From: Enterococcus asini ATCC 700915
GTDB lineage: Bacteria > Bacillota > Bacilli > Lactobacillales > Enterococcaceae
Assembly (NCBI RefSeq): GCF_000407365.1
Contig: NZ_ASVU01000001.1
Coordinates: 1,831,501-1,895,500, forward strand
Direction of reading: 5' to 3'
DNA length: 64,000 nt
The number at the start of each line of letters is the position of its first letter. Positions within the stretch are counted from its first letter, which is position 1. The notes under the pieces were generated by a model, which was given only the letters and a program-made list of their open reading frames with translations, had not been told where the DNA came from and made no database searches. Both the position numbers and the translations under genes were made by a program. Positions 44,118-57,487 of this stretch are shown piece after piece.

Positions 44118-45287
44118 ATGACTAATTTTACTACAGAAATTATGCAAACACTACTCAATAAAGGCGATTTAGATGAATTATTTCGGGATCATTTAGAACG
44201 AGCGATTAATTCACTTCTACAAGCAGAGCTAACTGCTTTTTTAGACTACGAAAAATATGATCGAAATGGATTCAATTCAGGAAATTCCCGTAACGGGAAT
44301 TATTCACGTACATTTAAAACAGAATATGGAGAGCTAAATTTAACTATTCCTAGAGATCGGAATGGCGAATTTTCTCAACAAACACTCCCAGCATATAAGA
44401 GAACCAATGATTCGTTAGAAACGACCGTTATCCAATTATTTCAAAAAGGCATTACGATGGCTGAAATTTCCGAATTAATTGAAAAAATGTATGGGCATCA
44501 CTATACGCCACAAACGATCTCCAACATGAGTAAACTCGTGTCTGAAGACGTTTTAGCATTTAAAGAAAGAACGTTAGAAGCCAGTTATTCCGTTATCTTT
44601 ATGGATGCGACACATATTCCTTTGAAGAGACAAACCGTTTCAAAAGAAGCCGTGTACATTACGATTGGTATCCGATTGGATGGAACCAAAGAAGTTCTTG
44701 GGTTCACTATCGCCCCAACGGAATCCGCGTATATTTGGAAAGAAGTTCTTCAAGATCTTAAAAACCGTGGGTTAGAAGAGGTTTTATTAGTGGTAACCGA
44801 TGGTTTAAGTGGTATCGAAGAAAGTATCCATAGTGTGTATCCGAATGCACAATTTCAACAATGCTGTGTACATGTATCTAGAAATATCGCACATAAAGTG
44901 CGTATTCGAGATCGAAAAGAAATTTGTGAGGAGTTCAAAGCGGTTTACCAAGCAACGTCTAAAGAAGAGGCATTGGCTCAAGTGGACTTTATGGTCAAAA
45001 AATGGGGAAAGCAGTATCCAAGAGTTGTCAATCTGCTCTTGAATCCTGCCATAGTCACATTTTATAATTTTCCTCCCACTATCAGACGAACCATCTATTC
45101 AACGAACTTAATCGAAGGATTTAATAAACAATTAAAACGGTATACTCGAAGAAAAGAACAATTTCCAAATGAAGACTCTTTAGAAAGATTTTTAGTGTCG
45201 CAATTTAATCAATATAACCAAAAATTTTTAGGCAGGATTCACAAAGGATTTAAAGAAATTCAGGATACATTAGAGTCAATGATTTAA
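44118..45287 (+). CDS. IS256-family transposase
   Basis: A 389-residue mutator-type (IS256) transposase. The DDE acidic residues appear as Asp in FMDATHIPL, Asp in LLVVTDGLSG, and Glu in STNLIEGFNKQ. Other family marks are YNSGNSRNG-like GFNSGNSRNGNYSR and IPRDRNGEF near the N-terminus, and QQCCVHVSRNI in the middle. The frame is intact with no internal stop. SD ATAGGAGGA precedes ATG. The gene is more AT-rich than the surrounding core genes, fitting its mobile origin. Confidence 0.96.
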   Translation: MTNFTTEIMQTLLNKGDLDELFRDHLERAINSLLQAELTAFLDYEKYDRNGFNSGNSRNGNYSRTFKTEYGELNLTIPRDRNGEFSQQTLPAYKRTNDSLETTVIQLFQKGITMAEISELIEKMYGHHYTPQTISNMSKLVSEDVLAFKERTLEASYSVIFMDATHIPLKRQTVSKEAVYITIGIRLDGTKEVLGFTIAPTESAYIWKEVLQDLKNRGLEEVLLVVTDGLSGIEESIHSVYPNAQFQQCCVHVSRNIAHKVRIRDRKEICEEFKAVYQATSKEEALAQVDFMVKKWGKQYPRVVNLLLNPAIVTFYNFPPTIRRTIYSTNLIEGFNKQLKRYTRRKEQFPNEDSLERFLVSQFNQYNQKFLGRIHKGFKEIQDTLESMI

Positions 45288-45346: not shown

Positions 45347-45902
45347 GTTAGCATTTTTCTTTGAAGAAAATCTATTTTCAATTTTTACTTTTGTTGAAAA
45401 ATCCAATAAACACGAGTTTTCATGAGTTTCTGTCTTTTTTTTGAATCCTCTCAATTTATTGGAAAAAAATGAAAAAGCTTGTGATAGGTGTACTTTTCAA
45501 TTTCTAGAATTGAAAAGGAGGTCTGTTTTCGTTAAAAGTGTCTCAAACGGATTTTTTCTTTTTTAGAGAATGGTCCGGTTCTGAGCAAAAAATTGAAAGC
45601 AAATACATTTTATTGGTGAATTATTCTTGCTAGGAAAACAACTGTCCTTTTTGTTAGGTGAGTGTTATTTTCTTATAAAACAAAAGTAATTTTATCTGAT
45701 CTCTCATTTTATGATGGATAACTTAAAAAAACGATCATTATGAATGTTTTTTTGTAAATTACTGTAAAATGTCTATACAAAAAGAATGTAAGCGCGATAA
45801 AAAACAAGAGAAAGAAAATGAGCGAAAGAAAACACGAAAAAAGATGATAAGAACTCAATTTTTTTGTGATTAACTGCTTTCGAATCATTAAGGTTGTGTT
45901 AT
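45347..45902 (+). other. Long AT-rich intergenic region upstream of the glycogen operon
   Basis: About 550 nt with no convincing gene. It holds: a 12-codon frame at 45469-45507 (MKKLVIGVLFNF, signal-peptide-like and cut short); an inverted repeat TTTTCAATT-tctag-AATTGAAAA at 45494-45516; a perfect SD (AAAAGGAGGT, 45513-45522) with no start codon at normal distance, only a GTG at 45538 opening a 31-codon frame; and a catabolite-responsive-like element at 45787-45800. It may be a large regulatory region, or a decayed gene. Confidence 0.5.
45787..45800 (+). promoter_or_regulatory. Candidate catabolite-responsive element (cre)
   Basis: TGTAAGCGCGATAA fits 12 of 14 positions of the cre consensus TGWAARCGYTWWCW. 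It lies about 115 bp before the predicted glgB transcription start, where CcpA commonly acts. Confidence 0.45.
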
Positions 45903-45908
45903 TATAAT
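45880..45908 (+). promoter_or_regulatory. Predicted promoter of the glycogen operon
   Basis: Exact -10 TATAAT (45903-45908); the -35 at 17-bp spacing is TCGAAT, poor, which would fit a promoter needing an activator. Predicted start about 45915. Confidence 0.55.
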
Positions 45909-45914
45909 ATTAGA

Positions 45915-45999
45915 AAACTCTGGTGCCTAGAAAACCTGCTTTCGATGAGGTTTTTTTGCGTTTGCCAGAGTGGCTAAGATTAGTGAAAAGGAAAGGACA
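45915..45999 (+). ncRNA. Nested-hairpin leader of the glg operon
   Basis: The predicted transcript begins with a 7-bp outer stem, ACTCTGG (45917-45923) with CCAGAGT (45965-45971). Inside it is a terminator-like hairpin, AAAACCT (45931-45937) with AGGTTTT (45948-45954) running into TTTTTTT. The glgB SD follows at 45991. No known riboswitch class is recognised. Confidence 0.5.
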
Positions 46000-46004
46000 A
46001 TGGT

Positions 46005-47915
46005 ATGGCTGACGAGGTAGCAACAGCAGTAGAAGCCGCAAAAACGCGGTTTCTCACAGGGGAAAACTTCTATGCTCAACATTTTTTAGGGGCACATCAA
46101 AGTAGCCAGGGCTATGTTTTTCGTGTTTGGGCACCAAATGCGCAACAGGTTTGGCTCGTAGGGGATTTTAATGATTGGGACGATACATTGCCCATGACTG
46201 TTTCCAGTGAATCCGGTATCTGGGAGGTGACCACGAAACTTCCAAAAGAAGGGGACTTGTACAAGTTTAAAGTCCGGCAACAAGATGGACGGGAGATTTT
46301 CAAAATTGATCCCTTTGCGATTTACTTTGAAAAGCGTCCAGGAAACGCTGCGGTGGTTCATACCATTCCAGAAAAGAAATGGCGAGATGGGTTGTGGCAA
46401 GGACGGAAGAAACGCTCGAATCAATTTAAGCGGCCTTTGAATATTTACGAGGTTCATGCTAGTTCTTGGAAACATCATGAAGATGGCACACCTTACAGCT
46501 TTGCCGATTTGACCCGGGAGTTGGTGCCTTATTTAAAAGAGATGAATTACACACATGTGGAGTTCATGCCTTTAATGGAGCATCCTTTGGGAAGAAGCTG
46601 GGGCTATCAATTAATCGGGTATTTTGCATTGAGTTCCTATTATGGTACGCCAGAAGAGTTTCAAGATTTTGTAGAGGCTTGTCACTTAAACAATATCGGC
46701 GTCTTCGTGGATTGGGTGCCAGGGCATTTCTGTATCAATGATGATACTTTGCCTTATTACGATGGAACGCCTACCTTTGAGTACACGGATCCAGATCGAG
46801 CTAACAATGTACGTTGGGGTTCTTTGAATTTCGACTTAGGGAAACCGCAAGTTCAGAGCTTCTTGATTTCCAGCGCCATGTTTTGGATTGAGATGTATCA
46901 TTTGGACGGCATTCGTGTGGATGCGGTATCCAATATGATCTATCGGGATTACGATGAAGGACCATGGACGCCGAATCATGAAGGGGGCAATCGGAACTTC
47001 GAAGGCTATTATTTCTTACAAAAATTAAATGCGGTGATTAAGCTCGCTCATCCAGAAGTCATCATGGTGGCAGAAGAAAGTTCTTCGGAAACGAAGATTA
47101 CCGGCATGATTGAAACCGGCTCTCTAGGTTTTGACTACAAGTGGAATATGGGCTGGATGAATGATGTCTTGCGCTTCTTTGAAATGGATCCACTTTTTCG
47201 TCAACACCACTTCAACCTGTTGACCTTTTCTTTCATGTACATGATGGATGAAAACTATATTTTGCCACTGTCCCACGATGAAGTGGTCCATGGGAAGAAA
47301 AGCTTGATGCACAAAATGTGGGGGGATCGCTACAAGCAGTTTGCTCAATTGCGCACCTTGTTCACTTATTTGATTACCCATCCTGGGAAGAAATTAACCT
47401 TTATGGGGAGTGAATGGGGACAATTTTTAGAGTGGAAGTTTGATGAAGGCCTTGAATGGGTGGATCTTGAGGATGATATGAACCACAAGATGCAGCATTT
47501 TACCCAAACCTTAAATGAATTTTACCGCAGCGAAAAAGCTTTGTGGGAGTTAGAGGGCACTTGGGATACGATTGAAGTCATTGACGCAGATAATACTGCA
47601 GATAGTGTGCTGACATTTATCCGCCAAGGGAAAACAAAAAAAGACTTTTTAATCGTCGTGCTGAATCTGGCACCGGTGGAACGGCAAAGCTTCGCCATTG
47701 GGGTACCTTATCCCGGAACCTATCAAGAAGTTCTGAATACGGAGATGGTGGAGTTTGGTGGGACTTGGACAAAGCACAATGACGTTTGTGAGTCACTGCC
47801 GATTGCCTTTAAACAATTTGACCAACAGATTCAAACGATTGTACCAGCCTTAGGAACATTGATTATCCGTCCTGAGCAGATTAATACACGAAAAGCTAAA
47901 AAAGTTTCTAAGTGA
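46005..47915 (+). CDS. glgB: 1,4-alpha-glucan branching enzyme
   Basis: A 636-residue GH13 branching enzyme that creates alpha-1,6 branches in glycogen. An N-terminal CBM48-like domain ([21 protein letters not shown]) precedes the (beta/alpha)8 barrel with nucleophile Asp306 ([12 protein letters not shown]), acid/base Glu in MVAEESSS, and [14 protein letters not shown] with the third Asp. Length fits the shorter Bacillus-type enzyme. ATG 46005 has GAAAGGA 7 nt upstream. It is first in glgB-C-D-A-P; the gap to glgC is 34 bp and contains a hairpin. Confidence 0.97.
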
Positions 47916-47917
47916 AA

Positions 47918-47949
47918 GGGGGAGAAGGTGAGATTTTTTCACCGTCTAA
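47918..47949 (+). promoter_or_regulatory. Hairpin between the SD and start codon of glgC
   Basis: The only strong SD (GGGGGAG, 47918-47924) is 25 nt from ATG 47950. Between them GGTGA (47927-47931) and TCACC (47939-47943) form a hairpin; when folded, the effective SD-to-ATG distance is about 8 nt. TAA lies in frame just before ATG, excluding an upstream start. Confidence 0.6.
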
Positions 47950-49092
47950 ATGAAAACTGAAATGTTAGCCATGATCCTAGCAGGAGGGCAAGGGACCCGT
48001 CTAGGAAAACTTACTAAAAACATCGCCAAACCGGCAGTTCCCTTTGGTGGTCGGTACCGCATTATCGATTTTACTTTGAGTAATTGTGCCAATTCTGGGA
48101 TTCGTAATGTCGGGGTTGTGACACAGTACCAACCCTTGACATTGAATAGTCATATCGGCAATGGGGCAAGCTGGGGCTTGGATCGGATTAATTCCGGGGT
48201 TACCATTTTGCAGCCTTACTCCAGCTCGGAAGGAAGCAAGTGGTTTGAAGGAACCGCCCATGCGATTTACCAAAACATCGATTATATCGATGAAATGGAC
48301 CCTCAATATGTGTTGATTCTATCCGGGGACCACATTTACAAGATGGACTATGAAGAAATGTTGGAAACTCACAAACAGAACAATGCTTCTTTATCGGTAG
48401 CGGTAATCGAAGTTCCTATGGATGAAGCATCGCGTTTTGGAATTATGAATACGGACGAAAACGACCGGATTATTGAATTTGAAGAAAAACCAGAACAGCC
48501 GAAAAACAACTTGGCTTCCATGGGGATTTACATCTTTAACTGGGGCCGTCTGCGCAATGTCTTGATGAACAGCTACACCAAAGACGGTCAGATGATCGAC
48601 TTTGGGAAACACGTGATTCCTTCTTATTTGGATAGTGGGGAAAACGTCTATGCCTATCGCTTCCAAGGCTATTGGAAAGACGTGGGTACGATTGATTCCT
48701 TGTGGGAAGCCAATATGGAATTTATCGAACCAGAGATGGACTTGGATATTCGGGACAAATCTTGGCGAGTGTATTCCAAAAATCCGATTTCACCACCGCA
48801 TTTCTTAACGGAAACCGGTTCGGTGAATGACTCCTTAATCTCAGACGGCTGCTACATCGCTGGAGCCATTGAACATTCGATTTTATCCGAGGATGTTCAG
48901 ATTAAGAGTGGTTCTGAAGTGAGTGACTCCGTGATTATGTCTGGAGCGACCATTGGGAAAAATGTCCGCATTCATCGGGCAATTATTGGCGAAAATGCCA
49001 TTATCGGCGACAATGCCGTAATCGACGGCAGCGAAGAAATCGAAGTCGTTGGGTATTCTGAAGTGATTGGGGTGTCTGTAGATGAGAACTAA
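47950..49092 (+). CDS. glgC: Glucose-1-phosphate adenylyltransferase, catalytic subunit
   Basis: A 380-residue ADP-glucose pyrophosphorylase subunit that makes ADP-glucose from glucose-1-phosphate and ATP, the committed step of glycogen synthesis. The nucleotide-binding start [20 protein letters not shown] and [11 protein letters not shown] are complete; the C-terminal left-handed beta-helix has repeated hexapeptides ([14 protein letters not shown]). Homologues start at the same position. In Gram-positive bacteria it works with GlgD, encoded next with an 11-nt overlap. Its SD arrangement is unusual. Confidence 0.97.
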
Positions 49093-50227
49093 TAAAATGT
49101 GTGCCATTATGGGGAATTTGACCCGTTTTAAAGAATTATTGCCGTTAACGGAAAACCGGCCAATCGCCACCTTACCTTTTGACTGCAAATATCGCTTAAT
49201 CGACTTTAACTTATCCAGTATTGTCAATGCGAATATCAATACCATCTTCATGGTCTTTAATGATGATGAAACTCAGTCGGTCTTTGATCATATCGGTGGG
49301 GGCAAAGAGTGGAATTTAGACGGTGTACAAAACCGTTTCTTTATCAATGTTTACCAAGATTTGTTAAAACAAAAAGCGGAACACAAAGCTTACTATGAAA
49401 AGGTCATCGACTATTTGAAAAAATCAAAGTCGGAATACGTGGTCTTTATGGGTAGCAAGATGCTGTGCAACATCGACTTGCGGGCGGTGCTGAAAATCCA
49501 CCAAATGCAAAAAAATGATATGACCGTAGTCTACAAACGAGTGGGCAAAGACAACATTCACCCAAGCGATCTGCTGCTAGATGTGGCAGCAGATGGCAAA
49601 ATCACCGAAACGATGATTGCCAAAGATACGACCCTTGGAGAAAAGAACAACTTGGCCATGGATATCTACATTATGCAAACCCAAGCTTTGATTGAAGCAT
49701 TATCCGTAGGGCAAAATACCAATGCTTCGGTGAACTTGGAAACTTTCTTCCGTAACTTAGTGGGTACGGTAAACAGCTCTAGCTACGAATACACCGGCTA
49801 TTTGAGCAATATTTACGATGTGGAAACCTACTTCCAAGCAAACATGGACATGTTGGATCCGAAGAAATTCAACTCCTTGTTGTATTCCAATCAAAAAATC
49901 TACACCAAGTTGAAAAACGAAGTGCCAACGTATTACTCCGATAGTTCTCAGGTAGAAAATAGCCAGTTTGCTTCCGGAAGCATTATCGAAGGCACGGTGA
50001 AAGACTCCTTGGTATCTCGTCAAGCCTTCGTACATCCCGATGCAGTAGTGGAAAATGCCATTCTTTTGGCCAACAACAATATTGGAGAAGGCGCCGTGGT
50101 TCGCCATGCGATTCTAGATAAAAATGTTGCCGTTGAAGCCGGCGTGAAAGTCATCGGTACACCAACCCATCCAGTAGTCTTGAAAAAAGATAGCTATGTA
50201 ATTTCGGATATTTATGGAGGAGAGTAA
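49082..50227 (+). CDS. glgD: Glucose-1-phosphate adenylyltransferase, regulatory subunit GlgD
   Basis: A 381-residue GlgC paralogue. It lacks the GGxGTRL pyrophosphorylase signature (here [16 protein letters not shown]-like, starting [13 protein letters not shown]) but keeps [11 protein letters not shown] and the C-terminal beta-helix. In Firmicutes GlgD is a catalytically weak partner that modulates GlgC in a GlgCD complex. The start ATG 49082 overlaps the glgC end by 11 nt, and its own end overlaps the upstream part of the glgA SD. Confident as glgD from position and divergence. Confidence 0.95.
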
Positions 50228-50228
50228 T

Positions 50229-51659
50229 TTGAAGATACTCTTTGCAGCAGCGGAATGTGCACCATTTTTTAAAACCGGGGGCTTAGGAGACGTGGCCGCC
50301 GCCTTACCAAAGGAATTGGTGAAAAAAGGCTTGGACTGTCGTGTGGTCCTGCCTTTTCACCACAAAATGTCACCAGAACTACGGGAGCAATGTGAAGATT
50401 TGTTTCATTTTACGGTGTCCGTAGGCTGGCGCAATCAATACTGTGGCATTAAGCGCCTAGTCTATGCTGGGGTGACCTATTATTTTATCGACAATGAGTA
50501 TTACTTTGCTCGGGATGGGCTGTATGGGTACGACGATGATGGGGAACGCTTTGCTTTCTTCCAGTTGGCAATTATGGAGATGATGGAACGGGTACACTTT
50601 ATCCCAGATGTCCTCCATGCCAATGACTATCACACTGCTTTGTTGCCATTTTTGGTGAAAGAAAAGTACCGTTGGATTCAATCCTACAATGAAATCAAGA
50701 CCATCTTGACGATTCACAATATTGAATTTCAAGGATGGTATGCTGGGGATAAGTTGGCGGATTGGTTCGGTGTGGGAATGGAACGCTATGAAGACGGCAC
50801 ACTGCGCATGAACAACTGCCTGAATTATATGAAAGGTGGCATTTTGTACGCAGACCGAGTGAATACCGTTAGCCCAACTTATGCCCAAGAGATTCAAACA
50901 CCGGAATTTGGTGCAGGCCTGGATGTAATCTTGCGCATGGAATCCGGCAAGTTATCCGGTATTGTTAATGGCATTGATTACGACGCAAACAATCCAGAAA
51001 CCGATCCTTTGATTGCCCATCATTTTACGGCTAGTGATTTGACTGGCAAAAAGGCTAACAAAGCAGACTTACAAAAAGCCATGGGACTACCGGTAAAAGA
51101 TGTGCCTTTACTAGCGGTGGTTAGTCGTTTGACCCGTCAAAAAGGCTTCCATCTTTTATTAGAGGAATTGCCAAGTCTCTTGCAACAAGAGATGCAGCTG
51201 GTATTGTTAGGTACCGGGGATTATGACTTTGAGCAAGCCTTTAAAGGGTATGCCCAAGCCTTTCCGGACAAAATTTCTGCCAATATCACTTTTGACGTGG
51301 CCTTAGCTCAAAGAATGTATGCGGGGGCGGATATCTTCTTGATGCCATCTGCATTTGAGCCTTGTGGACTTTCTCAGATGATGGCTATGCGTTATGGCAC
51401 CTTACCAGTGGTTCATGAAATCGGTGGCTTACGGGATACGGTGACGCCGTTTAATCCGGTAACTGGTAGGGGGACAGGTTTCGGCTTCCAAGATTTCAGT
51501 GGCTATCAGTTTATGAAAGCTATGGAGAAAGCCGTAACCTTGTATCGGGACAAACCGGTTTGGCAACAAGTGATGAAACAAGCCATGGAGCAAGATTTTA
51601 GCTGGCAGACCGCTTGCAATGCTTACTTGGCTTTGTATGAAGAAGTAGTGACAAATTAA
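50229..51659 (+). CDS. glgA: Glycogen synthase (ADP-glucose type)
   Basis: A 476-residue GT5 glycogen synthase that elongates alpha-1,4 chains from ADP-glucose. The N-terminal donor-binding [13 protein letters not shown], the [12 protein letters not shown] segment and C-terminal [18 protein letters not shown] are typical. The start is TTG at 50229, giving [13 protein letters not shown], which matches the family start; GGAGGAG lies about 6 nt upstream. ATG 50214 is in frame but would overlap glgD and contain the SD inside the gene. It is followed by a 134-nt gap with a large hairpin before glgP. Confidence 0.96.
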
Positions 51660-51664
51660 TGAAG

Positions 51665-51768
51665 GGCTGTGCGTCAAACCCCAGCAGTTTGGTGTCGACT
51701 TTGTCTCTTTTAACAAGATGAAGTGCGATGCGACAAGATACCTGCTGGGGATTGACCGCAGTCTTTTT
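51665..51768 (+). ncRNA. Large imperfect hairpin with U-tract between glgA and glgP
   Basis: GTCAAACCCCAGCAG (51673-51687) pairs with CTGCTGGGGATTGAC (51742-51756), one A/A mismatch. The stem extends outward with 51665-51671 against 51757-51763 (one bulged C) and inward with GGTGTC/GATACC and TTGTC/GACAA. TTTTT follows immediately (51764-51768), the geometry of an intrinsic terminator or attenuator. No known RNA family is recognised. Confidence 0.75.
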
Positions 51769-51793
51769 CCAATATAAAGGGGAGTATTTGTAA

Positions 51794-54217
51794 ATGGAGA
51801 TGACGAAGGAAGAATTTAAAAAAGAACTGCAACAACGACTAAAGGAAAAGTACGCCATGGACATCAATGACGCTTCCTCTCAGGAACTGTACAATGTCTT
51901 AGGGAGCGTGGTAAAAGCGTATTATTCCGATGCTTGGAGCAATACCTGGAAAGATTATTTGGAAGATGGCCAGAAGCAAGCCTATTATTTTTCCATTGAA
52001 TTTTTACCAGGGAAAATGCTAAAAAGTAACCTTTTGAATATGGGAATTTTAGAGACAGTGGAAGCTGGTTTGGCTGATCTTGGCGTCTCTTTGGATGAGT
52101 TAGCCCAAGTGGAGCAGGATATGGCCTTAGGAAACGGCGGGCTAGGACGACTGGCTTCTTGTTTCATGGACTCCATTGCTTCTTGTGGCTTGCCGGGTAA
52201 TGGCAATGGGATTCGTTACGATTATGGCTTATTTAAGCAGCGGTTTGTGGATGGGTACCAAGTGGAGTTGCCAGACGAGTGGTTGCGTAATGGCAATACC
52301 TGGGAAGTCCGGAAAGAATCCAAAGCAGTGGATGTGCTGTTTGGGGGCAATGTCTATTTAGCAGAAGACACTGACGGTCAGTTGCGTCCGGTCTATGAAG
52401 GAGCTCGTCGTTTGCGGGCAGTGCCTTATGACACGGCGGTTTTAGGGTATCAAAATCACTTGGTAAACACGTTGCGTCTGTGGAGTGTGGAAATTCCTGA
52501 ATCGGAAGAAGACCATTACCGCAGCATTGAAGACCGGCGAGCATTTGAGGATTTGACCGCGGTCTTGTATCCAGATGATTCCAATGAACGGGGCCGGCAA
52601 ACGCGCCTGTGGCAGGAATATTTCTTTGTTTCGGCAGGCGTTCAGAGTATCATTCGCTATTATTTGCGCTTAAATAAACCACTGGACGTTTTAAATGAGT
52701 ACGTGGCGATTCACATTAATGATACCCATCCAGCTCTATGTATCCCGGAAATGATGCGAATTTTAATGGACGAGCACGGCATGTCTTGGGAAAAGGCCTT
52801 CAATGTAACAGTGAAAGTCATGAGCTACACCAATCACACCATTATGGCAGAAGCACTGGAAAAATGGCCGGTGGCTTTAATGAAAGAAAATCTACCTCGG
52901 ATGTACCAAATTATCGAAGAACTCGACCGTCGCTTTGTAAATGAATTGACCATTTGCTATCCGGAAAATCCTGAGTTGATTCAACGGACTCGGATCATTC
53001 AAAATGAGCAAGTACACATGGCCCATTTGGCGATTATTTGTAGCCATAGCACCAATGGCGTGGCGAAACTTCACTCAGACCTTTTGAAAGAAGTCGTGCT
53101 TCATGACTTTTATCAATTGTTCCCAGAACGCTTCAATAATAAGACCAATGGAATTGCCCAACGACGCTGGTTGCAATTGGCAAATCCCAAATTATCCAAA
53201 GTCTTGGATCAGACCATTGGCACCACTTGGCGGAAAACTCCAGGGGATTTGAAGTTGTTGCAAAACTATGTGGAGGATCAGACGGTTCTTGATCAGTTAG
53301 CAGAGGCTAAGAAAAGCAACAAACAGCGATTGGCCAGCTATATCGAAGAGACAACGGGGATTACCGTTTCCCCAGAGGCGATTTTCGATGTGCAAATCAA
53401 ACGATTGCACGCCTATAAGCGTCAGTTGTTAAATCTTTTGCATATCTTGAAACTCTACTTCGACTTGAAAGACGATCCGAAGAAAGTCCAAGAATCTCGG
53501 CTCTTCATTTTTGGGGCAAAAGCGGCACCAAGCTATACTTACGCTAAATCTATCATTAAAGCTATCAATGAAGTGGCAAATCTAATCAACAACGATCCAG
53601 ACATTAACGGACGCATTAAAGTGGTCTTCTTGGAAAACTACAACGTGCATTTGGCAGAGCTAATCATTCCGGCGGCAGATGTCAGTGAGCAGATTTCCCT
53701 AGCGTCTAAGGAAGCTTCCGGCACTAGTAATATGAAGCTAATGCTAAATGGTGCAATTACCTTAGCAACCTTAGATGGGGCCAATGTGGAAATCCGGGAT
53801 GCCGTGGGAGATGACAATGTGGTAATCTTTGGCATGACCGAACGGGAAGTTTACCAGTATTACGAGCGTCAAGATTATGTAGCGAAGGATTATTATGACC
53901 AGTCCCCAGTGCTACAACGAATTTTAAACGCCTTTGTGGATGGCACGATTCCAAATATTTACTTTGAAGGCCGGGAAATTTTCGATTCCTTACTCAAACA
54001 CAATGACGAATATTTTGTCTTGCGAGACTTTGATGCCTACGTGAAAGCCCAAGAAAAAATTGACGGCTTGTACCGGGATCAACACCATTGGCAGCAAATG
54101 AGCTTGATGAACATTGCCAACGCTGGGCGTTTTTCCGCAGACGATACGATGATGCGTTACGCCGAAGAGATTTGGCACATTGAACCAGTGGAACAATATT
54201 CGAAAAAGAAGGGGTAA
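51794..54217 (+). CDS. glgP: Glycogen/maltodextrin phosphorylase
   Basis: An 807-residue GT35 phosphorylase that releases glucose-1-phosphate from alpha-1,4-glucan ends. The pyridoxal-phosphate lysine lies in EASGTSNMKLMLNGA; GNGGLGRLASCFMDS is the N-terminal signature and VFLENYNVHLAELIIPAADVSEQ the phosphate region. SD GGGGAG is 9 nt before ATG 51794. A long hairpin with a U-tract in the 134 bp ahead of it could make glgP expression separately adjustable from the synthetic genes. Confidence 0.96.
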   Translation: MEMTKEEFKKELQQRLKEKYAMDINDASSQELYNVLGSVVKAYYSDAWSNTWKDYLEDGQKQAYYFSIEFLPGKMLKSNLLNMGILETVEAGLADLGVSLDELAQVEQDMALGNGGLGRLASCFMDSIASCGLPGNGNGIRYDYGLFKQRFVDGYQVELPDEWLRNGNTWEVRKESKAVDVLFGGNVYLAEDTDGQLRPVYEGARRLRAVPYDTAVLGYQNHLVNTLRLWSVEIPESEEDHYRSIEDRRAFEDLTAVLYPDDSNERGRQTRLWQEYFFVSAGVQSIIRYYLRLNKPLDVLNEYVAIHINDTHPALCIPEMMRILMDEHGMSWEKAFNVTVKVMSYTNHTIMAEALEKWPVALMKENLPRMYQIIEELDRRFVNELTICYPENPELIQRTRIIQNEQVHMAHLAIICSHSTNGVAKLHSDLLKEVVLHDFYQLFPERFNNKTNGIAQRRWLQLANPKLSKVLDQTIGTTWRKTPGDLKLLQNYVEDQTVLDQLAEAKKSNKQRLASYIEETTGITVSPEAIFDVQIKRLHAYKRQLLNLLHILKLYFDLKDDPKKVQESRLFIFGAKAAPSYTYAKSIIKAINEVANLINNDPDINGRIKVVFLENYNVHLAELIIPAADVSEQISLASKEASGTSNMKLMLNGAITLATLDGANVEIRDAVGDDNVVIFGMTEREVYQYYERQDYVAKDYYDQSPVLQRILNAFVDGTIPNIYFEGREIFDSLLKHNDEYFVLRDFDAYVKAQEKIDGLYRDQHHWQQMSLMNIANAGRFSADDTMMRYAEEIWHIEPVEQYSKKKG

Positions 54218-54223
54218 TGGGCA

Positions 54224-56050
54224 ATGGGGGAAATTTATTACAATCCATGGAAATCAGCGTATAAGTCTCCCTTTGGCGCGATTCAAGAAGGACAGAGTGC
54301 CCGTTTTGGTTTTTTAGGTGCTGATTCGGGAATTGATCAAGTCTATCTGGTGATAGAACCAGAAGGGCAAAAGGCTTATCGCATTAAGATGACACCACAA
54401 GAGAATGGCTTTTTTCAGACGGAGTTTGCCTTTACTGATGGGAAGGGCTTGTACTTTTACCACTTTGAACTGGAGTACCTTTCGGCCAATCAGCAACGTT
54501 TTACCCGTTATTATGGCTGGAGCGGGGAAAATGGCCATGGGGAAGTGCGGGATTATTTGAAGGAATGCATGAATTATCAAGTAACGTGCTATCAGAAGGC
54601 CGAAAAAGCCCCAGACTGGTATCGTCAGGCGGTTTTTTATCAGATTTTCCCAGATCGGTTCTTCAATGGCAATCCGGACGGTCACGTGAACAATCCCAAA
54701 GAGAATACCTTCTTATACGGGGATTTACGGGACGATCCTATGTATATTAAAGATGCCCAAGGAGAAGTTTTACGGTGGGATTTTTATGGTGGGAATTTCG
54801 CCGGGATTCAGGCGAAGATTCCGTATTTGAAAGAACTAGGAGTCAATGCCTTGTATCTAAATCCCATCTTTGAGGCTCGTAGTAATCATCGCTATGATAC
54901 GGCGGATTATTTGAAGGTCGATCCGATTTTAGGGACGGAAGCGGAGTTTCAAGAGCTACTGGATACTTTGCATCAAGAAGGCTTTCGTGTGATTTTGGAC
55001 GGAGTCTTTAGCCACGTGGGGCGCCACAGCCGCTACTTCAACTACGATGGTGCGTACGGCCCTGGAGTCGGCGCTTATCAAGACATTAAGAGTCCGTATT
55101 TTCCTTGGTTTACCTTTTTGAACTATCCCAATGAGTATCGCTCCTGGTGGGGAGTCAAAGACTTACCAGAAGTCAATAAGGAGAATGAAGAGTTTCAGCG
55201 CTTTATCTATGGGGCTAAGGGTGTCTTAAGTAAGTGGAATCAAATGGGCTTAGACGGTTGGCGATTGGATGTGGCAGACGAATTACCGGATGAATTTATC
55301 GCCGGGATTCGCAACAATCTGGATCACTATGAAGACAAGGTTTTGTTAGGAGAAGTCTGGGAAGATGCTTCAAACAAAGTTTCCTATGGCGTTCGACGGC
55401 AATACATTTTAGGGGACCATTTGCATGGGGTGATGAATTATCCTTTGCGTAGTGCGACCATTGACTTCTTAATGGAAAATTGTAGTCCGGAAGACATCGC
55501 CTTGGTTTTCACCCGGTTGCAGGAAAATTATCCCCGAGAAGTCTTCTACAATAGTCTGAATAATATCGGTACTCATGATACGGAGCGAATTTTATCTCAG
55601 TTAGAGGGAGATTATGAGAAGCTTTCCTTAGCTTTCGCGCTTTTGGTGACTTTTCCTGGCGTACCGTGTATTTATTACGGGGATGAAGCAGGGCTTACGG
55701 GAGGTAAAGACCCGGACAATCGGAAGTTCTTTCCGTGGGGGCGAGTGGATGAGACTTGCTATCGAGAGTGTCGCAAGTGGTTGGCTTTGCGCAAGGAAAA
55801 TCACTTGCTTCAAGGAGGAGAATTCGGCTTGATTTACAGTGAGCGCCTACTAGGCGTTTTGCGCTACGATGAGACGCAGTTTATTCTCACCGTGCTTAAT
55901 CCTTTAGGGGTGGAAGTCATCGTGTCGGCAAAGGACTTTGCGGCTTTTCGGGAGTTGCCACTGACCAGAGAACGCTTGGCCGAACTTTTGGAAGGACAGC
56001 GCATTCGGGCTCATGGTTCTTATGTAATCGAAGGAGAATTGTCAGAATAA
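54224..56050 (+). CDS. GH13 alpha-glucan hydrolase (neopullulanase / amylopullulanase-like)
   Basis: A 608-residue GH13 enzyme with an N-terminal beta-sandwich (about residues 1-125, CBM34-like) and the (beta/alpha)8 barrel. Catalytic residues: Asp in DGWRLDVADEL, Glu in LLGEVWEDAS, Asp in NIGTHDTERI; YQIFPDRFFNG and IYYGDEAGLTGG are typical of the neopullulanase/cyclomaltodextrinase group. It follows glgP by 6 bp, matching the glgBCDAP-amy layout known in Lactobacillus acidophilus. It is probably intracellular and acts on branched limit dextrins; there is no signal peptide. Exact specificity (pullulan, cyclodextrin or alpha-1,6 links) is not decided. Confidence 0.9.
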   Translation: MGEIYYNPWKSAYKSPFGAIQEGQSARFGFLGADSGIDQVYLVIEPEGQKAYRIKMTPQENGFFQTEFAFTDGKGLYFYHFELEYLSANQQRFTRYYGWSGENGHGEVRDYLKECMNYQVTCYQKAEKAPDWYRQAVFYQIFPDRFFNGNPDGHVNNPKENTFLYGDLRDDPMYIKDAQGEVLRWDFYGGNFAGIQAKIPYLKELGVNALYLNPIFEARSNHRYDTADYLKVDPILGTEAEFQELLDTLHQEGFRVILDGVFSHVGRHSRYFNYDGAYGPGVGAYQDIKSPYFPWFTFLNYPNEYRSWWGVKDLPEVNKENEEFQRFIYGAKGVLSKWNQMGLDGWRLDVADELPDEFIAGIRNNLDHYEDKVLLGEVWEDASNKVSYGVRRQYILGDHLHGVMNYPLRSATIDFLMENCSPEDIALVFTRLQENYPREVFYNSLNNIGTHDTERILSQLEGDYEKLSLAFALLVTFPGVPCIYYGDEAGLTGGKDPDNRKFFPWGRVDETCYRECRKWLALRKENHLLQGGEFGLIYSERLLGVLRYDETQFILTVLNPLGVEVIVSAKDFAAFRELPLTRERLAELLEGQRIRAHGSYVIEGELSE

Positions 56051-56074: not shown

Positions 56075-56120
56075 ATTTTGTGGTAGAATAAGGCAAAGCC
56101 AGAAACAAAGGATGAGACTT

Positions 56121-56888
56121 ATGAGTAACTACAATGAGATCAAGCGGAAAAACTACCGCTTTCCAGCTTATGATGACAACGAAGGGGTAAAACTGCACCG
56201 AGAAGGCAAGCGCAATCTCTTCGCCAACGACCGCAGTTGGTTGACCCCAAATACTGCTGCAAGCTCGAAACCAGCAAATACCGTAGCTGATACGACGAAT
56301 AGCCGTAGCACTGACAATCAAGACGAACGCACTTTGCGCCGTTCTCGAAAAGAAACTTTGGACAAGCAAGGTTTGACGATTCGTCAACAGACTGAATTAC
56401 AAAAACACCGGGACAATTTACCGGATTACAGCAAAAAAATCACTACGGAAACCGATGCGGTGGGGCGAACTTCTCTGTTTGGGAAAGACCCTCGGAAATC
56501 GGCTTTGCGCAATCCAGCGACACCGAAGAAAACCGATGATTCCCTAAAACGGGAGTATTCTGGTCGTTCTTACTTCGTGCCTAAGTATATTCCGGCTTCT
56601 GTTCTTCCAGATGAGTCTAATAGTAAAGATTCTGGAGTCACTTCGGAGGAACTGTTAACTTCTTTGAAAAAGCCTCAAGACAGCTATTTGATGTTTGATC
56701 AAGAGGTCTCTGCGTATCAAGAAAAGCGCAAGGAAGACCCCACGGTGAAGAAATTCCCAGCAACCGAGGTCAATGAGGAAGAACCAGCAACGAAACGTAA
56801 AGGAATTTTAGAGCGTGGCTTGCAAGGTTTGATTCATGACGAAACGGTGAATCCAAAGAATAAGGGTTACTTTACGAAGAAGGGATAA
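56121..56888 (+). CDS. Hypothetical, charged, probably disordered protein
   Basis: A 255-residue protein I do not recognise. It is rich in Lys, Arg, Asp, Glu, Ser and Thr, with no membrane helix, signal peptide or globular motif. There are short ordered-looking islands: EIKRKNYRFPAYDDNEGVK at the start, RSYFVPKYIPASVLP in the middle, and KGILERGLQGLIHDETV near the end, spaced by low-complexity linkers. This resembles a scaffold or adaptor with short binding motifs. Start ATG 56121 is favoured by AAAGGATGAGA upstream; ATG 56112 lies inside that SD. A TGGTAGAAT extended -10 lies at 56081-56089. It is followed by a small gene 5 bp later, probably co-expressed. Confidence 0.7.
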   Translation: MSNYNEIKRKNYRFPAYDDNEGVKLHREGKRNLFANDRSWLTPNTAASSKPANTVADTTNSRSTDNQDERTLRRSRKETLDKQGLTIRQQTELQKHRDNLPDYSKKITTETDAVGRTSLFGKDPRKSALRNPATPKKTDDSLKREYSGRSYFVPKYIPASVLPDESNSKDSGVTSEELLTSLKKPQDSYLMFDQEVSAYQEKRKEDPTVKKFPATEVNEEEPATKRKGILERGLQGLIHDETVNPKNKGYFTKKG

Positions 56889-56893
56889 GGCAG

Positions 56894-57079
56894 ATGGAAG
56901 CATACGAAACGCAGTTGGATAAGCTTAAATCTGGCGAAATCGAGAAAATCGAAGTGAGTCTGGAACAATTCATGTTGTTTCGGGAAGTTTGGTTAACCAG
57001 AGAAGATCGCAAATACTTTGTAGGCGAAGCACATCATAACGGGAGTGTCACCTATCGTTACGATCCTACTGTTCTATAG
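56894..57079 (+). CDS. Small conserved-looking hypothetical protein, 61 residues
   Basis: A 61-residue soluble acidic protein with SD AAGGGATAAGGCAG just before ATG 56894, 5 bp after the disordered-protein gene and ended by a strong terminator, so it is likely translated. An N-terminal helix (ETQLDKLKSGEIEKIEVSLE) leads to a beta-like end (KYFVGEAHHNGSVTYRYD). Function is not recognised. Co-transcription with the preceding gene suggests a shared function. Confidence 0.7.
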   Translation: MEAYETQLDKLKSGEIEKIEVSLEQFMLFREVWLTREDRKYFVGEAHHNGSVTYRYDPTVL

Positions 57080-57080
57080 A

Positions 57081-57114
57081 AAAACTCCGAGGCAAAGAGG
57101 CCTCGGAGTTTTTT
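57081..57114. terminator. Bidirectional terminator
   Basis: ACTCCGAGGC and GCCTCGGAGT form a 10-bp stem with A-run and T-run on its two sides. It serves the 61-residue gene and the minus-strand small gene. Confidence 0.93.
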
Positions 57115-57145
57115 ATTCTTCAGGGGTACTTACGAGCAGCAGTGT

Positions 57146-57374: not shown

Positions 57375-57396
57375 TAAACAGTCGCCAGTGGCACAT

Positions 57397-57479
57397 GCGG
57401 AAGTGGCGGAATGGCAGACGCGCAACGTTGAGGTCGTTGTGAGCAATAGCTCGTGTGGGTTCGACTCCCATCTTCCGCA
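57397..57479 (+). tRNA. tRNA-Leu, anticodon GAG
   Basis: 83 nt. The acceptor stem is GCGGAAG with CTTCCGC and discriminator A. The anticodon stem CAACG/CGTTG holds the loop TTGAGGT, anticodon GAG, reading CUC and CUU. A long variable arm, as expected for leucine, follows, and the T-loop is GGTTCGACTCC. CCA is not encoded. It stands alone with its own promoter and terminator. Confidence 0.96.
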
Positions 57480-57487
57480 TTTCTTTT

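Follow-up and report, generated by a model that had tools for sequence, protein, structure and literature searches.

Results

Organization of the glg operon

The window, meaning the entire 64,000 nt stretch of Enterococcus asini DNA analysed here, contains a glg operon in the order glgB, glgC, glgD, glgA, glgP and a GH13 alpha-amylase-family gene. The features of the operon and of the glgA-glgP junction are as follows.

46005-47915, + strand: glgB (NCBIfam), synthesis gene upstream of the hairpin
47950-49092, + strand: glgC (NCBIfam), synthesis gene upstream of the hairpin
49082-50227, + strand: glgD (NCBIfam), synthesis gene upstream of the hairpin
50214-51659, + strand: glgA, glycogen synthase (NCBIfam NF001898, above cut-off), last gene ahead of the hairpin
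51661-51767, + strand: long hairpin, MFE -54.2 kcal/mol, 44 pairs, 9-nt apical loop
51764-51768, + strand: U-tract TTTTT, the first four U able to pair with GAAG at 51661-51664
51776-51784, + strand: probable Shine-Dalgarno sequence of glgP, AAAGGGGAG, judged from its letters and lying outside the hairpin
51794-54217, + strand: glgP, glycogen/alpha-glucan phosphorylase (NCBIfam TIGR02093, 1116 bits)
54224-56050, + strand: GH13 alpha-amylase-family protein (Pfam PF00128), 6 nt past glgP

The original prediction described this operon as tightly packed except for 134 nt between glgA and glgP, and the five intergenic gaps of the window agree with that description, measuring 34 nt (glgB-glgC), -11 nt (glgC-glgD), -14 nt (glgD-glgA), 134 nt (glgA-glgP) and 6 nt (glgP-GH13). 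The hairpin begins at the second nucleotide past the glgA stop codon (TAA, 51657-51659) and occupies most of the glgA-glgP gap, flanked by the co-directional glgA and glgP genes, which are presumably carried on a single transcript.

Several other elements were observed in the neighbourhood. A Mutator-family transposase gene (Pfam PF00872) is located upstream of the operon at 44118-45287. TATAAT is present in the glgB leader (45903-46004), as is a small hairpin, AAAACCT/AGGTTTT, with a T-run after it; an analogous small hairpin with a T-run, of -5.3 kcal/mol, is present upstream of glgB in a sister species (L132). This leader hairpin is weak, as the hairpin scorer finds nothing in the window or in the other eight genus mates. 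A promoter-like stretch resembling GTGTTATTATTATATTAGAAAA is observed upstream of glgB in the window and in L132-L140, being common to the genus with variations. Past the GH13 gene, a 258-aa reading frame (56112-56888) has no Pfam match at E 0.001, and an 856-nt gap contains both a 96-nt terminator-like hairpin (57049-57144, -34.3 kcal/mol) and a tRNA-Leu(GAG) gene (57396-57480).

Structure and stability of the hairpin

Folding reproduced much of the pairing originally proposed: a core in which 51673-51687 pairs with 51742-51756 at 14 of 15 positions, seven outer pairs (51665-51671 with 51757-51763) set off by one bulge (C51672), and TTTTT immediately 3' of the stem at 51764-51768. In the MFE structure four outermost pairs join 51661-51664 with 51764-51767, extending the stem into the U-tract and bringing the hairpin to 107 nt. 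The TTTTT at the hairpin 3' end lies 25 nt ahead of the glgP start codon, a distance of 30 nt from the U-tract start to the ATG. The interior of the hairpin, in contrast, differs from that proposed, as the inner pairs GGTGTC/GATACC and TTGTC/GACAA have a pairing probability of 0.0 (two decimals) and the 28-nt apical loop is absent from the predicted structure. Rather, 51688-51706 is paired with 51716-51737, leaving a loop of 9 nt, and the defects in the stem consist of an A-A mismatch (51678/51751) and small internal loops. The earlier structure, encoded with five of the six GGTGTC/GATACC pairs as 51742 is already part of the core, scores -41.5 compared with -54.2 kcal/mol for the MFE structure. 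The minus strand of the same stretch is less stable (-40.2 kcal/mol) and its hairpin is followed by TTCATTAATTT, with no clear U-run; a simple scan lists a small sub-hairpin there.

The region is more stable than expected by chance. The MFE of 51640-51790 is -55.5 kcal/mol versus -34.8 +/- 3.8 kcal/mol for 200 dinucleotide shuffles (z -5.38), with 0/200 shuffles matching it. Among 25,556 overlapping 110-nt stretches, taken every 5 nt on both strands of the window, the hairpin is the most stable at -53.8 kcal/mol, the next place reaching -46.8. The hairpin was also compared with 144 terminator-like hairpins detected by the strict scorer (defined below) in the intergenic parts of a 264-kb sample of this genome, consisting of the window and ten 20-kb stretches. 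At 99 nt by the same scorer it is the longest of the 144 and has the lowest energy among the 25 longest listed. The original description of the element as far longer than an ordinary terminator thus holds as regards rank but not as regards a separate size class, since other hairpins in the sample reach 83-96 nt and the window hairpin is the end of a length continuum. The element has the composition of an intrinsic terminator, a stable G+C-containing hairpin with a U-run (T5) directly after it. A simple terminator scan with allowed loops of 3-8 nt did not list the hairpin, whose predicted loop is 9 nt.

The hairpin is single copy and has no match in Rfam

Only one copy of the spacer was detected in its own genome by blastn, the sole second match there being 18 nt in length (E 0.71), and there were no plasmid matches. 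A search of nine genus mates gave only 16-21-nt matches to the hairpin (E 0.4 or worse), and the best other match to the spacer query, 19 nt with E 0.009, corresponds to the glgA end at the query start. The 148-nt hairpin of a sister species, described below, is also single copy. The concern, expressed along with the original prediction, that the segment might be a dispersed repeat element is therefore not borne out in the own genome, the nine genus mates or plasmids. A dispersed palindromic repeat (MITE, EFAR-like) was rejected on the same grounds, the sequence being present once rather than in multiple copies. If a palindromic mobile element of the type of the E. faecalis EFAR repeats had inserted into the spacer and since decayed, this would account for a long intergenic palindrome that greatly exceeds the 38-nt median of the family. 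Such an origin is barely credible, however, when both this hairpin and that of the sister species are single copy, genus matches are this short and plasmids yield none.

Rfam searches of the whole window at gathering level detected only a tRNA, and a permissive search (E up to 5) of 51500-51900 gave no match over the hairpin, in line with the original statement that no known riboswitch or leader family was recognized. Two permissive matches within 51500-51900 lie outside the hairpin, score below half the gathering scores and were taken as chance. Both arms were searched for an antiterminator partner in 200 nt upstream (glgA) and 132 nt downstream, and duplex energies were within those of plain shuffles, with 65, 145, 72 and 33 of 200 shuffles as good as the real duplexes. 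A riboswitch or leader attenuator is not supported, there being no conserved aptamer or known family and no alternative pairing beyond shuffles. The proposal that the apical loop could bind a ligand or protein is likewise unsupported, as the 28-nt loop is absent, the hairpins of the two nearest relatives are unrelated and no antiterminator partner was found.

These searches bear on whether the element is a conditional switch, that is, a terminator bypassed in starvation, whether by a protein, by a metabolite or by coupling to ribosomes at the glgA stop, with glgP increasing when the cell has to draw on glycogen. The location makes biological sense and, given the size of the ribosome footprint, a ribosome terminating on glgA would cover the outer pairs of a 5' arm that starts at the second nucleotide past the stop. 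A switch of this kind is nevertheless distinctly unlikely, as no conserved sequence or aptamer is observed, the hairpins of the nearest species are unrelated, neither arm has an upstream or downstream partner beyond shuffles and the hairpin lacks an Rfam match.

Hairpins recur at the glgA-glgP junction across the family

The family to which the window belongs, Enterococcaceae judging by its named members, was examined in the genome collection. Of 105 family genomes searched, 79 contained GlgA, and all of these but G066, which yielded no locus, were examined (78); a glgP match was absent from the stretch taken downstream of glgA in 16 of the 78, leaving 62 gaps, one row per genome, with the glgP starts of relatives taken from alignment to that of the window. 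A first, loose scorer, which allowed long branched hairpins, passed 65/77 glgA-glgP gaps at -8 kcal/mol but also 39% of shuffles, against 3/87 glgB-glgC and 0/11 glgP-GH13 gaps, and was replaced as too loose. The strict scorer required a single hairpin of at most -10 kcal/mol and at most -0.33 kcal/mol per nt, plus a U-tract. Left out of the strict count were 15 gaps of the loose set, from streptococci, Vagococcus, Pilibacter, one MAG and L022, the last having a gap equal to that of L116. Since shuffles often pass the loose scorer, the family result depends on requiring a compact hairpin.

With the strict scorer, a hairpin plus U-tract was detected in 45/62 family glgA-glgP gaps compared with 3/620 dinucleotide shuffles (10 per gap), although the 45 are not 45 independent events, as the genomes are related and the L137 and L138 gaps are identical. 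For the gap of the window itself, one of its 10 shuffles passed the strict scorer too. Control gaps were negative by the same scorer, at 0/10 for glgB-glgC and 0/9 for glgP-GH13. No terminator was scored in 17/62 gaps, four of which are short (9-31 nt), indicating that some lineages do without a glgA-glgP hairpin terminator.

The site itself is distinctive. The glgA-glgP gap ranges from 9 to 390 nt and is at least 57 nt in 58/62 family gaps, whereas the glgC-glgD junction is -11 or -14 nt in 119/119 rows, glgD-glgA overlaps in all rows but one (L021, +114) and the glgP-GH13 gap is -4 to 35 nt in 12/12 rows, these junction rows including some loci present twice. Enlargement is thus specific to the glgA-glgP gap, because the glgC-glgD and glgD-glgA junctions overlap almost everywhere. 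Within the gap the hairpin starts no more than 25 nt from the glgA stop in 40/45 cases. Median hairpin length in the family is 38 nt, with at least 65 nt in 10/45.

Hairpin length and the associated U-tracts are informative with respect to mRNA stability or processing, in which the duplex would block 3'-5' exonucleases or be cut by RNase III, with little true termination, leaving glgBCDA on a stable mRNA of its own and glgP on another. RNase III acts on long duplexes and the window stem is very long and stable, with few defects. Stabilization of upstream transcripts by long internal hairpins is, moreover, raised in a clostridial study (PMC9045158). However, neither T5 nor the U-tracts that follow unrelated hairpins in relatives would be needed for stability alone, and a median of 38 nt in relatives is short for such an element, making this explanation unlikely.

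Hairpin sequence is not conserved

The family junction hairpins are of unrelated sequence and range from 26 to 148 nt at the same site. Even the two species with the most similar GlgA (77-78% identity) have spacers unrelated to that of the window: in G004 there is a hairpin of 148 nt and -68 kcal/mol with T6, in G002 one of 36 nt with a T-run. Five genus mates (G001, G003, G006, G007 and G008) share a glgA-adjacent hairpin with a poor U-tail and also have a small GAAGAAG/CTTCTTC hairpin plus T5 before the glgP ribosome-binding site. In genus g5, hairpins of 68-79 nt with T5-T7 are detected in 6/6 genomes by the loose and 5/6 by the strict scorer. Another locus (L143, genome G021) has two hairpins in its glgA-glgP gap: a small one close to glgA, and one of 105 nt with a T-run beginning 21 nt ahead of glgP.

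No alignable relative of the window hairpin was found, and the covariation counts therefore come from other hairpins. In genus g3 (19 of 20 genomes aligned), changes on both sides were observed in 5/14 pairs and 12/266 cells were unpaired, a count which leans towards the structure, as RNAalifold had derived the fold from these 19 rows. Four of the five genus mates with the glgA-adjacent hairpin showed 1/27 pairs with a both-side change and 6/108 unpaired cells. The six g5 loci were compared as three species pairs, MAFFT having misaligned the subgroups, giving 1, 1 and 0 pairs with both-side changes.

Stem conservation in relatives, named originally as a point on which the prediction would turn, was observed in part: sequence is not conserved, while the presence and place of the hairpin are kept. 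The position of the hairpin is conserved in the family although its sequence is not. A hairpin and U-run directly after a reading frame, constant in place but not in sequence, are in keeping with selection acting on termination rather than on ligand binding.

Transcription of glgP

The U-tract starts at most 46 nt ahead of the glgP ATG in 24/45 gaps and 57-108 nt ahead in 21/45. A promoter behind the U-tract hardly fits in the 30 nt available in the window or in the up to 46 nt of these 24 gaps. With hardly room for a promoter, glgP would be read through from upstream, implying that the terminator is leaky or conditional. A consensus promoter scan revealed no + strand promoter-like site in 45,510-51,867, with low power (21 sites versus 19.4 in shuffles), and the 490 nt preceding glgB are likewise without a listed site. 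The alternative, in which termination is complete and glgP-GH13 has a promoter of its own, has enough room in the 21 gaps with longer spacing and is compatible with so weak a scan. It is very improbable, as the window and the 24 shorter gaps offer so little space and a promoter inside glgA would still need read-through of the hairpin.

Discussion

A proposed role for the hairpin in operon expression

We consider it likely that the hairpin is a leaky intrinsic terminator inside the glg operon, setting expression of glgBCDA above that of glgP-GH13. The terminator geometry and the split between synthesis and breakdown genes suggested in the original prediction are supported, with the addition that the position is conserved in the family. 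From the structure, place and single copy of the hairpin, and its recurrence in the family with changing sequence, we infer termination and an effect on enzyme ratio, and from the shortage of room for a promoter behind it, leakiness. A share of the polymerases past glgBCDA would stop at the U-tract, at approximately 51764-51768, while the remainder would read through into glgP and the GH13 gene, so that the breakdown enzymes would be set at a lower fraction of the synthesis enzymes. By analogy with the measured clostridial terminators discussed below, termination would be partial at a U-run of 5 nt that follows so strong a stem. The shorter mRNA would retain the hairpin at its 3' end, which should additionally shield the glgBCDA message from 3' exonucleases.

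In a broader form of this proposal, the glgA-glgP junction would serve, in much of the family, as a valve by which transcription is adjusted, its leakiness conditional, set for example by ribosome coupling at the glgA stop or by NusA/NusG, and glgP would be released when growth slows. We regard this extension as speculative and unlikely.

Genes for glycogen synthesis and breakdown are here contained in one operon, and how such opposing enzymes are held at unequal levels is a question of general relevance. A terminator that stays in place as its sequence changes would provide a natural variant series, within one family, for measuring the tuning of enzyme ratios.

Comparison with known systems

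Lalanne et al. 2018 reportedly described terminator-tuned enzyme ratios in bacterial operons; leaky internal terminators that keep their position while changing sequence would be the same principle. A published glgA-glgP terminator was not found among the matches listed, as judged from titles and abstract starts.

Internal intrinsic terminators that end part of the transcripts have been measured in the ABC-importer operons of Ruminiclostridium cellulolyticum, where efficiency depends on U-run and stem length and can be influenced by pairing between the U-run and the 5' side (PMC9045158). What the two have in common is a hairpin with a U-tract located within an operon, immediately past the gene that is to be expressed in excess. 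The long stem, partly paired U-tract and unpaired mid-stem site described in the text of that study are shared with the window hairpin, the latter two having counterparts in the 51661-51664/U-tract pairs and the A-A mismatch at 51678/51751. The R. cellulolyticum terminators, however, belong to another operon in another bacterial group, and termination was measured there whereas it is predicted for the window. In addition, the tested series of one hairpin given in that text spans -9.7 to -30.3 kcal/mol, weaker than the hairpin of the window at 99-107 nt and -49 to -54 kcal/mol.

The glgBCDAP-amy-pgm cluster of Lactobacillus acidophilus has the same glgB-C-D-A-P-amylase gene order as the window, but the available text reports predicted terminators at the cluster flanks, following trxB and pgm, and mentions none between glgA and glgP (PMC4282360). 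With terminators placed at the cluster flanks in that portion of the report, a glgA-glgP terminator may not be universal. Internal terminators as such are known, and it is the family-wide recurrence of a putative one at the glgA-glgP junction, accompanied by turnover of its sequence, that is the interesting part.
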